This document shows, piece by piece, positions 4,835 to 25,050 of a stretch of DNA of 37,864 bases (positions are counted from its first letter, which is position 1; each line of letters begins with the position of its first letter). The translations under genes were made by a program, and so were the position numbers. The stretch comes from Candidatus Lokiarchaeota archaeon (GTDB lineage: Archaea; Asgardarchaeota; Thorarchaeia; Thorarchaeales; Thorarchaeaceae): the NCBI GenBank assembly GCA_014730275.1, contig WJIL01000135.1, positions 1-37,864 on the forward strand, in the 5' to 3' direction. The notes beneath the pieces were generated by a model that had not been told where the DNA came from, did not search any database, and was given only the letters and a program-made list of their open reading frames with translations.

Positions 4835-6607
4835 GTGGCAGAAGGACAGGAGCGCGAATACAATGGAGTCCTTTCTGGCAAGAATGTAGAAGCAATCGTC
4901 AAGATGGCAAACGATGGGATAGTAGCCATCGAAGACGGAATCATTGCTTATTCAAATCCTGCTTTTTGTGAAATGCTGGATGTAACGACGAAAGAGGTCA
5001 TTGGAAGACCCTTTGAAGATTATCTCGATCCAACAGCCAAACACATGTATACAGAAAATATTGAGGCCTTCGATTTTGGAGAATCCGGACGTCCGAGTTT
5101 CAGGGTAAGACTCCTTGATTCGAAGCGACATGTTGTAAACGCAGAAATGAGCACTTCTGATTTCATCTTCAACGGAAAACCAGCGATTCTAGCCATAGTC
5201 CGTGATATATCAGAACAGGTTGCCCTAGAAGCATCCTTAGAAGCTTCAGAAGCCCGTTATCGAACCCTTTACGATTCTTCACCGATAGCATATTTCACCC
5301 TGAGCAGGCGTGGAATCATCCAAGATGTAAATACCGCCGCCGAGACCCTTCTCGGATACGACACCTCAGATATGCTCCGTCGGAATATTTCATCACTTAC
5401 AACTGGAAAAGAACGTGGGCGGCGTTCTGCGGACCAAATCGTTTCCGAAGTATTGCAAGGTAAGACCGTACGAGACGTAGAAATGAGGATGCTACATTCT
5501 GATGGCAGTACCATCTGGGTAAGCATCACCGCAAGCCCACTCAGTGTTCCTGATGAACCGCCACGAATAGGATTCATGGCTCTGGACATAAATAGACGGA
5601 AGATGGCGGAGCTCAAGGAAAAAGAAGAAAGAGAACGAGCTAATCTGTATCTGGATGTAATTACGCACGATCTCTCGAATGTCAATCAGACACTTCTATT
5701 CACAATCGGACTTATTGATCAGAGCTTGGACGTTCCACCCGAAATTCAGCAACTGATACGCGAGTCCAACTGGAATATTGATAGAGCAACTCGTATGGTC
5801 ACCAACTTGAGAATCATCTGGGAGCTGGAAAAACACCCGCCAGAAAAGGAAAGGAAAGATCCAGTCGAATGCATCAATCATGCTATCCAATCTGTACGAG
5901 ATACGTTTAGGTGGAAGCAGATAGATGTGGATTGCGAAATGGAAAAGGGAGAATTCGAGATTGCTGGAAACAGATTTCTGCGCCATGTGTTTCTTAACGT
6001 GTTGACAAATTCCGTGCTTTTCACGGAAGGCGATAATGTTGAAATTGAGATAGTAGCTTCCAGCCAGAGTGACATGGTTAGAATAGAATGCATGGACTAT
6101 GGAAAGGGCATACCCGACTCCCTGAAAGAAAGCATCTTCAATCGTAATAGCTCAGAACAGCAAATGGTTGGTCGCGGCCTCGGCCTCACCCTTGCTAGAA
6201 TGGTCATTAATGACCTTGGCGGGCGGATATGGGCGGAAGACAGAGTTGATGGCGACCACACGAAAGGTGCATCAATCGTCATTACATTGCCGCAATGGGT
6301 TGAAGAGGCCGAACTCCCCTGCGGACGCAGCAAATGTGTTATCTTTTATGAATCCGATCATTGTCTTTTCTGCGAACCCACCAAAGAGACACTTTTTGGG
6401 CTCATACGGGAGCTGGGCATTACAGAGCGATTTGTTGAAGTCATCAATGTAGACGATCCTTCAGTTGTGATTGATGAGGATGAACTTCCAATGTTGCCAA
6501 TGATTCGTATCTGTGAAGATGAGCTAACAGGCTTTGTAGGGGAGGACAGAATACGCATGAGCCTCATGCGTCTCCTTATGAAAGAATGTTATCCAGGAGC
6601 AGCTTAG
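4835..6607 (+). CDS. PAS-PAS sensor histidine kinase with C-terminal thioredoxin-like domain
   Basis: Soluble sensor kinase of 590 residues without membrane helices. PAS 1 spans about residues 15-132 and PAS 2 about 137-262. The phospho-acceptor is H278 in YLDVITHDLSNVNQT, a dimerisation-box variant common in archaeal kinases. The ATPase domain follows: N box LNVLTNS (N388, N392), G1 DYGKG (421-425), and G2 GRGLGL (446-451). After residue 497 a separate domain begins with CVIFYESDHCLFC, contains a CLFC pair (C510, C513), and has a later MLPMIRI resembling the thioredoxin cis-proline segment (P555). That arrangement reads as a thioredoxin/glutaredoxin-like fold fused to the kinase. GTG start; GAGAGG lies about ten bases upstream. 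No response regulator is adjacent, so the partner is elsewhere. Confidence 0.9.
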   Translation: MAEGQEREYNGVLSGKNVEAIVKMANDGIVAIEDGIIAYSNPAFCEMLDVTTKEVIGRPFEDYLDPTAKHMYTENIEAFDFGESGRPSFRVRLLDSKRHVVNAEMSTSDFIFNGKPAILAIVRDISEQVALEASLEASEARYRTLYDSSPIAYFTLSRRGIIQDVNTAAETLLGYDTSDMLRRNISSLTTGKERGRRSADQIVSEVLQGKTVRDVEMRMLHSDGSTIWVSITASPLSVPDEPPRIGFMALDINRRKMAELKEKEERERANLYLDVITHDLSNVNQTLLFTIGLIDQSLDVPPEIQQLIRESNWNIDRATRMVTNLRIIWELEKHPPEKERKDPVECINHAIQSVRDTFRWKQIDVDCEMEKGEFEIAGNRFLRHVFLNVLTNSVLFTEGDNVEIEIVASSQSDMVRIECMDYGKGIPDSLKESIFNRNSSEQQMVGRGLGLTLARMVINDLGGRIWAEDRVDGDHTKGASIVITLPQWVEEAELPCGRSKCVIFYESDHCLFCEPTKETLFGLIRELGITERFVEVINVDDPSVVIDEDELPMLPMIRICEDELTGFVGEDRIRMSLMRLLMKECYPGAA

Positions 6608-21628: not shown

Positions 21629-22549
21629 ATGGCCAGAACAAGAGAGGACTTCAAGAAAGCTTTCAATAAGAGACTCAAGGCAGCAACTGAAGATGAGCTC
21701 CGTATTGTGATAAAGGAGCAATACCGAGAGGCATTCGACGTGCTTACCGATTGTGAAAACGCAGGCCTCATCCCGGGCATAATTGGGCCGCCCGGTGTGG
21801 GAAAGACACTACTTCTTAGAGCATATGCAAAAAAGAGCGGAAGGGATTTTCATTGGGTGACTGGCGATGAAGGTGTAAGGCCCTCACATCTCGTAGGTTC
21901 TTATAATCCAGCACTGGTTCTTGAGCGAGGCTTCAGTCTCGATTCATTCGATCCAGGCCCCATGTTGAAATGCATGGTTTTTGGCGGAGTATTTGGTCTC
22001 AATGAGGCAAATCGACTACCTGAGTACGTGCAGAACTCACTTCTGGAACCGCTCGAAGAGAGAATGGCCAACGTTCCCAGAATAGGTCGTATCTCGGCTG
22101 ATGAAGAATTCTTCGCAGTGCTTACAATGAATCCGGAAGAAATGGCTGGCGCACATAGGTTAAGTGAAGCGCTTCGAGATCGAATCCGTGTATGGATACG
22201 ACTTGGATATCCAAGAAAAGAAACGGAGATTGAGATTGTAAAGGTCAACTGTCCAGAGTACAAACTCTCTGATCATGTTCTAGAAACAATCTATGACCTC
22301 GTGTCGTCCACCAGGCAATCTACGGATATAGAGATACCAGCATCAATCAGAGCCGGGATATCCATTGCACGACTAGCATCTGAGATGGGACAAAGAAAGA
22401 GAAAGAAGGATGTGAATCATTCAATCCTCTCAGAAGCAGCAAACTACGTCCTTAGTGGGGCATTGCGATTTAGGCCGGGTGTTGATCCCGAACCAGCTGT
22501 GAACCGTATTATCAGATCCACCATTGGAGGGAGAGGAGCTAGCCAATAA
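21629..22549 (+). CDS. MoxR-type AAA+ ATPase
   Basis: A 306-residue AAA+ ATPase of the MoxR/CbbQ kind. Walker A is GPPGVGKT (53-60); Walker B is VFGLNEANR (121-129), with the MoxR-like N-E-A-N-R end; sensor 1 is LTMNPEE (N168); an arginine-finger region follows in SEALRDRI. Such ATPases work with a VWA-domain partner to remodel or metallate a target enzyme. Here the partner is the next gene, which starts on the last base of this stop codon. A role in Rubisco, nitric oxide reductase or methanol dehydrogenase activation cannot be assigned because none of these is nearby. Confidence 0.92.
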   Translation: MARTREDFKKAFNKRLKAATEDELRIVIKEQYREAFDVLTDCENAGLIPGIIGPPGVGKTLLLRAYAKKSGRDFHWVTGDEGVRPSHLVGSYNPALVLERGFSLDSFDPGPMLKCMVFGGVFGLNEANRLPEYVQNSLLEPLEERMANVPRIGRISADEEFFAVLTMNPEEMAGAHRLSEALRDRIRVWIRLGYPRKETEIEIVKVNCPEYKLSDHVLETIYDLVSSTRQSTDIEIPASIRAGISIARLASEMGQRKRKKDVNHSILSEAANYVLSGALRFRPGVDPEPAVNRIIRSTIGGRGASQ

Positions 22550-25050
22550 TGGGGACAAAAGCAAAAATCGATCCTATTCCCAGCATGGTAGTAGAATTTG
22601 CTCACGAGTTTGTCTCTCGAATGAGGGCCCGCAAGGATCTCAAGCAAAAACCAAGCATAAGGCAGACAGAAGCCATTCCTCAATTCTTGAGTGCACGCTA
22701 CTTCAAACAAGGAAGGCTTAGCCTCGACGATTTGGTTGAAGCCGCAGTATATACGACATTCCCGGCTGATCAGAAAGTGGCAAGGGATGTAGCTGAAGAT
22801 ATCGTACTTGGAAGAGAAGATGAGGAAAAGACGATACTCGAAACGCAGCAAAAGAAAGAAGCGCAGAAGAAAGCAAAAAAGGCAGTCACTGATTCACTCA
22901 ATCAAGTCATCAATTCCATATTGCGAGAACAGGAATTATCTGAAAAAATTGAAACCGACAAAATAGCGGATGGTTACAACTATCTGCGAAATCTGAAAAG
23001 GGCAGACAAAGATGACTTGTTGAATTCAGCTACTGACTATCTCACAGAAGGCGACATAGTCTTACGAGGCATTTCTAATGATGAAAGGCTGAAACAGGAA
23101 GCTTCCCAAGAGCTACAAGAACGGATTGGTGGTCTCAGCTCTAGGGATATCGAGAATTCCAAGACACTAGATAGCCTTGATCAGGTTTGTTCATCACATA
23201 ACAGAGCTGAATCTCTAGCAGCCAAAGCGCTACGAGGAGATTCAGAAGTCGAGAAGAAATTCAATGACCTGGCCCAGCGAGATTCTGCTACTGCAGCTCG
23301 GGCTCTATCACATATGAAGGATATTGGGTCTCCAAAAAAAGCTAAACGAAATGCTATGCAAAAGCAGTTGGAGGGTTCAATTCAAAATCTAGAGGAAATG
23401 GCTTCTTACGCTTCTCATCTTAATGAAGTACCCAAGAATGCTGATTCTCATGTGCAGTCAGCTCCCAAGGAATTTCCCATTGACGAAGCAATGAGAATGG
23501 CAGACCGAATCAAGAAACATACTGGAAAATCACTTCATGATCAACTGATGAAGGAATATGATTCTCAATTCAACGAAGGGGCGTCAAAAAATGTAGATCA
23601 TCATCAACTTGCTGACAACGCTACCCCACAACAGCATTGGAAGAATCTGGTTGAGAAAGTAACAGATAGAACTATGGACCGAGCACAGTCACGTTCTGCA
23701 CCGGCTGAATATTTGCTCAAGAAACTGGCACAACACAGCAAGCTAAGCAATGACTTACCGGGACAATGCAGAAGCACTTGGAATGAACAGATGCAACGGC
23801 TTAGTGATGAGGCAATCAAGCAATCGCAATCAAAAGCACATATGCGAAAGAATGTCAGGAGAGCAAGAAGAATGGGCACCAGTCCCTCAGAAGAGGCCAT
23901 TCGTCAGAGAGGACAAGAACTGGGAATGAGTGAAAGCGAGATTCTCGAGTTGGTGAACCCTTCTTTCCAAGTTGCCAAGAAGCTGATTAATCAAGGTGTT
24001 AAGGACTTCGATCGATTGCATGGACTGATATCCTCCGCTGGACTCAGTCAATCTCAGCTCGAAGAACTAGCCGACATGGCAAACAAAAAGGGAAATGCTT
24101 CAGCGCTCGGAGCGGTTGGGCATGTTGATTTGCACGCCGCGTTGGGAATGGGCAGAGGGAGGAGCAGAGGAGAACCAGATCCACAAAGAGCAGACATGGC
24201 ACTGAGGGGTTTACTTGGGGGGCCAGCCACAAATATTGTGACAATTTGGTATACCTACCGAGAAAACCTTCCACCCGAATTCAAGAGAAGACTAAAGCAA
24301 ATTGCGAAACGTCTGCTGATAGATCTTGGTAAAAGCTTCGCTCGGGCAGTAATGGGCTCATCGATGTTGGGCGGTATCCAACCATCCACAACAGTGCGTC
24401 CCTTCCGCATCGGTGATGATATTGATCTCATAGATCTTGAGGAGACCTTGTCACATCTTCTTTCCGAAGGACGTACGGATTTCCGCACGTTGCGGCCAGA
24501 TGATTTCCTAATCACTGAAACATATCATGGCCACAGGGCGTTCTACTGGGCTCTTGACAAAAGCGGTTCAATGCATCATCCGAAGAAACTCGGTATGCTA
24601 TCGATTTCAGTCATGGCAGGACTTTATGGTATCCAAAAAGACGACTTCGGCGTAGTTCTCTTTGACCATGGAACGCATATCGTCAAGGATATAGCAGATC
24701 CAACAAAATCAGTAGAGAAAGTAGCATCGGATCTTCTTGATCTTAGAGCCAGTGGGGGTACTGGGGGTGCGAGTTCGATTAGGCTTGCCCTTCAGAATCT
24801 CGAGAAAACAAGAGCAAGAGAAAAGATATTCATCTTTTGTACAGATGTTTATCTGAGCGACCAGTCAGAATGTGTTGATTTGATGGCCAAAATCAAAAAA
24901 CAGGGAATTGACACAATTCTTCTTGTACCAGCAGCTGAATATGACCGAAAATCAGCTGATGAACTGGCCAAGTCATCTCACGGAGTTGTTCTTGATATTG
25001 ATTCCGTTGATGAATTGCCTCAAAGGCTGTTGCGGCTGACTAACTACTGA
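22549..25050 (+). CDS. Large VWA-domain protein, partner of the MoxR ATPase
   Basis: An 833-residue protein whose start overlaps the MoxR stop (TAATG). Residues 1-640 are highly charged and largely helical, with predicted coiled-coil segments (KKEAQKKAKKAVTDSLNQV; HMRKNVRRARRMGTSPSEEA) and no recognised domain. The VWA domain begins near 660: the MIDAS motif D670-K-S-G-S keeps the DxSxS metal site, followed by SGGTGGASS and FCTDVYLSD, giving a complete metal-dependent adhesion site. The long N-terminus exceeds that of typical CbbO/CoxE partners. Probably acts as the target-recognition arm of the ATPase. Cytoplasmic; no signal peptide. Confidence 0.85.
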   Translation: MGTKAKIDPIPSMVVEFAHEFVSRMRARKDLKQKPSIRQTEAIPQFLSARYFKQGRLSLDDLVEAAVYTTFPADQKVARDVAEDIVLGREDEEKTILETQQKKEAQKKAKKAVTDSLNQVINSILREQELSEKIETDKIADGYNYLRNLKRADKDDLLNSATDYLTEGDIVLRGISNDERLKQEASQELQERIGGLSSRDIENSKTLDSLDQVCSSHNRAESLAAKALRGDSEVEKKFNDLAQRDSATAARALSHMKDIGSPKKAKRNAMQKQLEGSIQNLEEMASYASHLNEVPKNADSHVQSAPKEFPIDEAMRMADRIKKHTGKSLHDQLMKEYDSQFNEGASKNVDHHQLADNATPQQHWKNLVEKVTDRTMDRAQSRSAPAEYLLKKLAQHSKLSNDLPGQCRSTWNEQMQRLSDEAIKQSQSKAHMRKNVRRARRMGTSPSEEAIRQRGQELGMSESEILELVNPSFQVAKKLINQGVKDFDRLHGLISSAGLSQSQLEELADMANKKGNASALGAVGHVDLHAALGMGRGRSRGEPDPQRADMALRGLLGGPATNIVTIWYTYRENLPPEFKRRLKQIAKRLLIDLGKSFARAVMGSSMLGGIQPSTTVRPFRIGDDIDLIDLEETLSHLLSEGRTDFRTLRPDDFLITETYHGHRAFYWALDKSGSMHHPKKLGMLSISVMAGLYGIQKDDFGVVLFDHGTHIVKDIADPTKSVEKVASDLLDLRASGGTGGASSIRLALQNLEKTRAREKIFIFCTDVYLSDQSECVDLMAKIKKQGIDTILLVPAAEYDRKSADELAKSSHGVVLDIDSVDELPQRLLRLTNY

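Follow-up and report, generated by a model that had tools for sequence, protein, structure and literature searches.

Redox input to two-component kinases usually comes from single cysteines, haem, quinone or flavin. The gene considered here lies in a stretch of 37,864 nucleotides from an Asgard archaeon of Thorarchaeota type (Candidatus Lokiarchaeota archaeon, contig WJIL01000135.1; the whole stretch is called the window below), and it encodes a histidine kinase with a C-terminal domain that is predicted to fold like thioredoxin. A thioredoxin-fold domain on a kinase is already known from SasA, the cyanobacterial clock kinase, where it binds KaiC (PMC6769508), and kinases without an H-box are already known from Methanosarcina (PMC11784639). 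SasA resembles the window protein in being a histidine kinase with a fused thioredoxin-fold domain (PMC6769508). However, the SasA domain is N-terminal and KaiB-like, while the domain in the window is C-terminal, after the ATPase domain, and has a CxxC motif and a set of four further cysteines in a protein with two PAS domains. The SasA order of a KaiB-like domain followed by the kinase is not found in the window protein, which begins with a PAS domain. RdmS and MsmS, the MA_type 2 kinases of Methanosarcina acetivorans, are archaeal and lack an H-box, and RdmS was studied earlier for thiol-based redox sensing (as cited in PMC11784639). The window protein is not of the MA_type 2, as it has a histidine at position 278. 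Fusion open reading frames (ORFs) with this histidine are called H+ below and those without it H-; the 30 H- paralogues are like RdmS and MsmS in the missing H-box, a comparison made on that feature alone.

Other known systems share the fold rather than the kinase. In zinc thioredoxins of the Trx2/TrxC type, a zinc finger at the N-terminus, with two CxxC motifs, holds the extra cysteines. These proteins are like the window protein in having a thioredoxin fold with a CxxC and further cysteines, which in their case are tied to zinc (PMC8615215); Trx2 of D. radiodurans (PDB 7d6l) is a fold match of the window protein's tail in both Foldseek and VIA-align. However, the window protein has no N-terminal zinc finger, and of its extra cysteines two precede strand 1, one follows strand 3, and one follows the last helix. 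Of the 50 fold matches listed for the tail or for the whole protein, none was noticed to join a thioredoxin to a histidine kinase. The literature searches gave no paper that was recognised as a description of an archaeal fusion of this kind, and neither a C-terminal CxxC tail with the four-cysteine set nor an H- paralogue that keeps the CxxC came up in them. In the passages of one census, thioredoxin occurs only as REC-thioredoxin reductase (PMC5847659). The fusion may be known elsewhere, since bacterial genomes were covered only by one single-pattern scan.

The C-terminal domain of the window protein may be a thiol redox sensor or transducer that is coupled to the histidine kinase. We give this reading a probability of about one half. 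The domain order, the predicted fold, the conservation, the single fusion clade, the joint pattern of the four cysteines, and the loss of the histidine with retention of the CxxC are computed results. The features of the gene are as follows.

4835 to 6607, + strand: kinase-thioredoxin fusion gene, 590 amino acids encoded by 4835-6604, GTG start (homologues with equal length and domain order).
4892 to 5209, + strand: PAS domain 1, about residues 20-125 (second Pfam PAS stretch; AlphaFold2 strands 28-124).
5255 to 5578, + strand: PAS domain 2, residues 141-248 (Pfam PF00989, 89.3 bits for the whole protein).
5591 to 5833, + strand: DHp helix pair, residues 253-333, with the phospho-acceptor H278 (AlphaFold2 helices 253-297 and 302-333).
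5666 to 5668, + strand: codon of H278, motif THDLSNVNQ (sequence and alignment).
5972 to 6295, + strand: HATPase_c or CA domain, residues 380-487 (PF02518, 67.6 bits, cut-off 26.4).
6320 to 6604, + strand: predicted C-terminal thioredoxin-like domain, residues 496-590 (AlphaFold2, Foldseek, VIA-align and conservation).
6362 to 6373, + strand: CLFC motif, C510 and C513, at the start of helix 1 (conservation).
6497 to 6499, + strand: P555, the cis-proline position, within MLPMIRI (conservation; cis assigned by position, not geometry).
6320 to 6322, + strand: C496, extra cysteine 1 (alignment).
6335 to 6337, + strand: C501, extra cysteine 2, just before strand 1 (alignment).
6512 to 6514, + strand: C560, extra cysteine 3, after strand 3 (alignment).
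6587 to 6589, + strand: C585, extra cysteine 4, after the last helix (alignment).

The tail of the protein, about 95 residues, is predicted to fold like thioredoxin. Its AlphaFold2 model, built with 64 rows, has a predicted local distance difference test score (pLDDT) of 78.7 and a predicted template modelling score (pTM) of 0.68, and the order of its elements is b-a-b-b-b-a, with strands at 28-32, 60-64, 82-85, and 88-91 and helices at 39-53 and 96-108 of the model. This core, the CxxC that opens helix 1, and the proline before strand 3 are those of the thioredoxin-fold superfamily. The first rows of a Foldseek search with the model are mostly thioredoxins (best E 1.3e-3, probability 1.00). 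The best VIA-align matches include TrxP and thioredoxin A2 (Z 9.7, 83-87 residues aligned, root mean square deviation (rmsd) 2.5-2.8), and the match to 3hxs has Z 9.7 and rmsd 2.8 over 87 aligned residues. The tail does not reach the curated cut-offs of Pfam PF00085 (Thioredoxin) and PF00462 (Glutaredoxin), to neither of which it has a match at E<=1. A stand-alone relative has a Thioredoxin match under the cut-off (E 0.001) and a sub-threshold Glutaredoxin match, and the two scanned of the more distant relatives in genomes of family f24 match PF00085 with 29.7 and 29.0 bits against a cut-off of 23.5. An earlier note, made from the sequence of the window without database searches, had proposed a thioredoxin-like tail with CLFC and MLPMIRI; C510, C513, and P555 are found in these motifs, and the structure prediction that it called for gave a thioredoxin-like fold rather than an unrelated one.

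The cysteines and the proline of the putative active site are invariant. C510 and C513 are identical in all 65 distinct C-terminal fusion ORFs, which answers the earlier note's question about their conservation in orthologues, and the CLFC cysteines are invariant in the 64 rows of tail alignment A1. P555 is kept in 64/64 fusion ORFs with that column present, and G566 is likewise invariant wherever its column is present. A chance motif is ruled out by this invariance of C510 and C513 together with that of P555. The same residues bear on the idea that the domain is a thioredoxin-fold docking module without redox chemistry, as the KaiB-like domain of SasA would be. KaiB is among the fold matches of the tail (5jwo, Z 9.1, rmsd 2.6, 81 residues aligned in VIA-align), and the SasA domain does bind KaiC according to PMC6769508. 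However, a docking function is hard to square with a CxxC and a proline that are invariant across 65 ORFs, and the domain is C-terminal here. This explanation appears quite unlikely.

The kinase portion of the window protein is complete. The earlier note had read it as PAS-PAS-HisKA-HATPase, and Pfam finds the two PAS domains and HATPase_c. Pfam HisKA has no match at E<=1 in the protein, yet both the alignment and the AlphaFold2 model clearly show H278 and the DHp helix pair. The N and G boxes of the ATPase domain are present (N388, N392, D421, G425, G448, and G450), and the protein also has the DHp histidine of a histidine kinase. The model of the whole protein, made with 40 homologues, has pLDDT 84.1 and pTM 0.50 and contains two PAS folds, a long DHp pair, the CA domain, and then an a/b domain at residues 502-582. 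The Foldseek matches listed for this model are mostly PAS and histidine-kinase structures.

The C-terminal fusion is specific to the window's family, f1. All loci pooled, the ORFs with the domain at the C-terminus of the kinase number 65, counted by distinct domain sequence, beside 23 small ORFs and 8 others. The fusion occurs at least once in 41 of the 47 f1 genomes listed in the domain search; a search of this kind across Asgard genomes was among the checks named in the earlier note. A search with the whole protein found matches at E<=1e-60 in 31 of 59 genomes, including the window's own, and all 31 belong to f1. The equal order and length in many genomes and contigs rule out an assembly or frame artefact. 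With the domain, 48 of 99 genomes match at E<=1e-3, and a domain profile matches 166 of 227 genomes across the phylum at E<=1e-6; many of the weaker profile matches are short ORFs, maybe ordinary thioredoxins, and are left out of the count for this family. A single-pattern scan over the contigs of named genomes hit 40 loci. All of these are labelled Thorarchaeota, Lokiarchaeota or archaeon, and most are Thorarchaeota. The 65 fusion rows form a single clade in the kinase tree, built without the thioredoxin columns, with a Shimodaira-Hasegawa-like approximate likelihood ratio test (SH-aLRT) value of 98, and the fusion is again one clade in the domain tree with a value of 95; both are quick trees without bootstrap, with several long-branch rows and a rooting that joins long branches.

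The H- paralogue has kept the dithiol and lost the phospho-acceptor. Position 278 is histidine in 35 of the 65 fusion ORFs and serine, glutamine, asparagine, lysine or arginine in the other 30. The CxxC and P555 are present in all 30 H- ORFs, while N392 is kept in 14/30, G446 in 25/30, and G450 in 26/30, several ATP-lid glycines are variable, and N388 and D421 are found in 30/30. Of the columns with at least 97% conservation in H+, 11 are in DHp, 20 in CA, and 16 in the thioredoxin part; H- keeps 3, 8, and 8 of these, respectively, and the last 8 include both CxxC cysteines and P555. The autokinase function of the H- proteins looks gone. Because the CxxC and P555 persist despite the eroded kinase residues, the dithiol is under selection apart from autokinase function. 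This outliving of the phospho-acceptor is the strongest evidence, and it speaks for a separate function of the thioredoxin site. The 30 H- rows form one group inside the fusion clade (SH-aLRT 95 in both the kinase and the domain tree), and separate recruitment of the domain by H+ and H- kinases is therefore not favoured.

A domain that outlives the phospho-acceptor could also be an output. In that case the state of the PAS domains or the kinase would control a reductase or disulfide-exchange activity on a partner, and H- would be a PAS-controlled redox protein on a kinase scaffold. The retention of CxxC and P555 in proteins that have lost the H-box and some of the ATP site fits this idea, as do the thiol and sulfur genes (for DsrE, TusA, a TlpA-like redoxin, and DsbD_TM) that recur near the H+ kinase (Pfam, one representative each). 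On the other hand, N392, D421, G425, and G450 are kept in all 35 H+ ORFs, so that phosphotransfer is still selected in this form. An output role is unlikely, but not far-fetched.

The two forms often occur in the same genome. Among the 41 fusion genomes, 23 have one H+ and one H-, ten have H+ only, seven have H- only, and one has two H+; the window's own genome and its same-genus relative have H+ only. A catalytic H+ and a pseudokinase H- might form a hetero-oligomer with one phosphorylation output, which would read thiol redox through the CxxC and, in the six-cysteine form, a thiophilic metal, with H- as a redox receptor on a kinase scaffold. This is unlikely as it stands, and the co-occurrence is no proof of a heterodimer because each of the two forms is common and the genome assemblies are not complete.

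Four additional cysteines are kept or lost together, which suggests a second thiol or metal site. C496, C501, C560, and C585 are all present in 41 of the 65 fusion ORFs and all absent from 23, one ORF being cut by a contig end (in the scoring, C496 may be displaced by as many as two columns and C585 by one). All four are found in 34/35 H+ ORFs, the 35th (L153) being the one that is cut, and in 7/30 H- ORFs, while 23/30 H- ORFs have none. Thioredoxin has the sheet order 4-3-1-2 with strand 3 antiparallel. By this general topology, strand 1 starts, and strand 3 and the last helix end, at the pole opposite the CxxC, and thus the four extra cysteines could meet there.

Neighboring genes of the H+ kinase include candidates for metal handling. 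Fourteen H+ contexts were read (the window, L095, L097, L099, L101, L103, L104, L105, L108, and L110-L114). An ArsR-type gene adjoins the kinase in eight of them and a P-type ATPase with a CPC motif in seven. The ArsR gene beside the G004 kinase lies under a longer antisense ORF and was found by tblastn, which gave no ArsR gene in the window, L103, L108, L111, or L112; L113 ends at the kinase, so that the neighbor on that side is beyond the contig. These genes and the all-or-none pattern of the four cysteines are consistent with a domain that is mainly a metal sensor, in which the four cysteines bind a thiophilic metal and the CxxC is part of the site or reports on it. However, 23 of the 30 H- ORFs keep the CxxC without the four, the window's copy has no such metal genes next to it, and the cysteine pattern needs only 2 changes on the kinase tree, so that the joint loss amounts to one or two events. 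A primary role in metal sensing is decidedly unlikely. ABC transporter genes also recur beside the H+ kinase, as do genes that look SfsA-like and DinB-like by sequence. Elsewhere in the window, at 21629-25050, neighboring ORFs resemble by eye a MoxR-type AAA ATPase and a VWA-domain protein.

Related domains are found alone and in other fusions. The window's own genome has two clear small relatives of 115-119 amino acids in addition to the fusion copy. Of 23 distinct small ORFs, 20 have all six cysteines, two lack the last one, and one has the CxxC only. The small six-cysteine proteins (L055-L074, L213, and L214; for example L069:3389-4294) have a flavodoxin gene in 9/22 contexts and an Endonuc_Holl gene in 13/22, identities that come from scans of two flavodoxins and one Endonuc_Holl. 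L056, L074, and L214 form a second subtype, which lies between RimK-like and proteasome-alpha-like genes, named by eye. L004:1369-1764 (G000:C77) is small, has the CxxC without the four extra cysteines, and groups outside the six-cysteine clade. In f24, another Asgard family, a different kinase (L245-L249) has the order PAS, thioredoxin-like domain (CVYC), PAS, DHp, and HATPase. In all five loci read (L249 is cut by the contig end) it has threonine where the H-box histidine is expected, a column that we take as the H position by reading the motif against ordinary H-boxes. In family f4, the related domain is followed by two V4R domains in three genomes, with V4R scanned in one of them, in the following ORFs.

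L075:1594-3054, L076:1915-3378, and L077:3050-4555: thioredoxin-like domain plus V4R (family f4).

These f4 proteins are weakly MsvR-like, resembling MsvR-type V4R regulators, whereas the window protein has no V4R domain in Pfam. With the C-terminal, f24, and V4R arrangements, signalling proteins of this phylum have thus acquired such a domain more than once.

For the proposed redox sensor or transducer, we infer redox activity, gating, metal, partner, and output as follows. Either the cellular thiol pool or a small partner would oxidise or reduce the C510-C513 pair. This change would cross the short linker (about residues 488-500) to the neighboring ATP-binding domain and set the rate of H278 phosphorylation, and a separate response regulator would then receive the phosphoryl group. 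At the pole opposite the CxxC, the four extra cysteines would be a second site, most likely for a metal, and H- may be a regulatory partner or a receptor of the same thiol signal. Counted in favor of redox gating are the predicted fold of the tail, the invariant CxxC and P555, their retention in H-, the single fusion clade in both trees, the occurrence of the same type of domain with redox or signalling partners (the flavodoxin gene, V4R, and the f24 PAS kinase), the ArsR and CPC-motif ATPase neighbors of the H+ kinase, and the 16 receiver-domain matches in the window's own genome, which are possible phosphotransfer partners. This genome (G000) has 37 HATPase_c matches against those 16 receivers, so that kinase-type ATPases outnumber receivers.

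Several points weigh against redox gating. A search of the last 107 residues against Pfam and NCBIfam gave no family at E<=1, and the claim of a thioredoxin therefore rests on the AlphaFold2 model, the fold comparison, and the sub-threshold and distant-relative Pfam matches; Foldseek gave no match at or below 1e-3 (best 1.3e-3). The placement of the domains relative to each other is unsettled in the whole-protein model (pTM 0.50). In the window, no response regulator gene was recognised by eye next to the kinase, and the ArsR and P-type ATPase neighbors are absent from both the window and the same-genus relative. Also, the PAS domains could be the real sensors. The earlier note had suggested a kinase tied to thiol redox state; the thioredoxin-like fold and the invariant cysteines agree with this, and the redox tie itself is the best-supported inference.

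The four extra cysteines, the H- paralogue, the stand-alone relatives, and a second, differently built fusion go beyond what the earlier note had seen. Signalling in Asgard archaea is almost untested experimentally, and the pair of H+ and H- proteins, with a CxxC and four extra cysteines that can be mutated one by one, is a clean experimental system. If the proposed function is true, a disulfide-exchange network would be linked directly to phosphorylation in Asgard archaea through a built-in thioredoxin-like domain.
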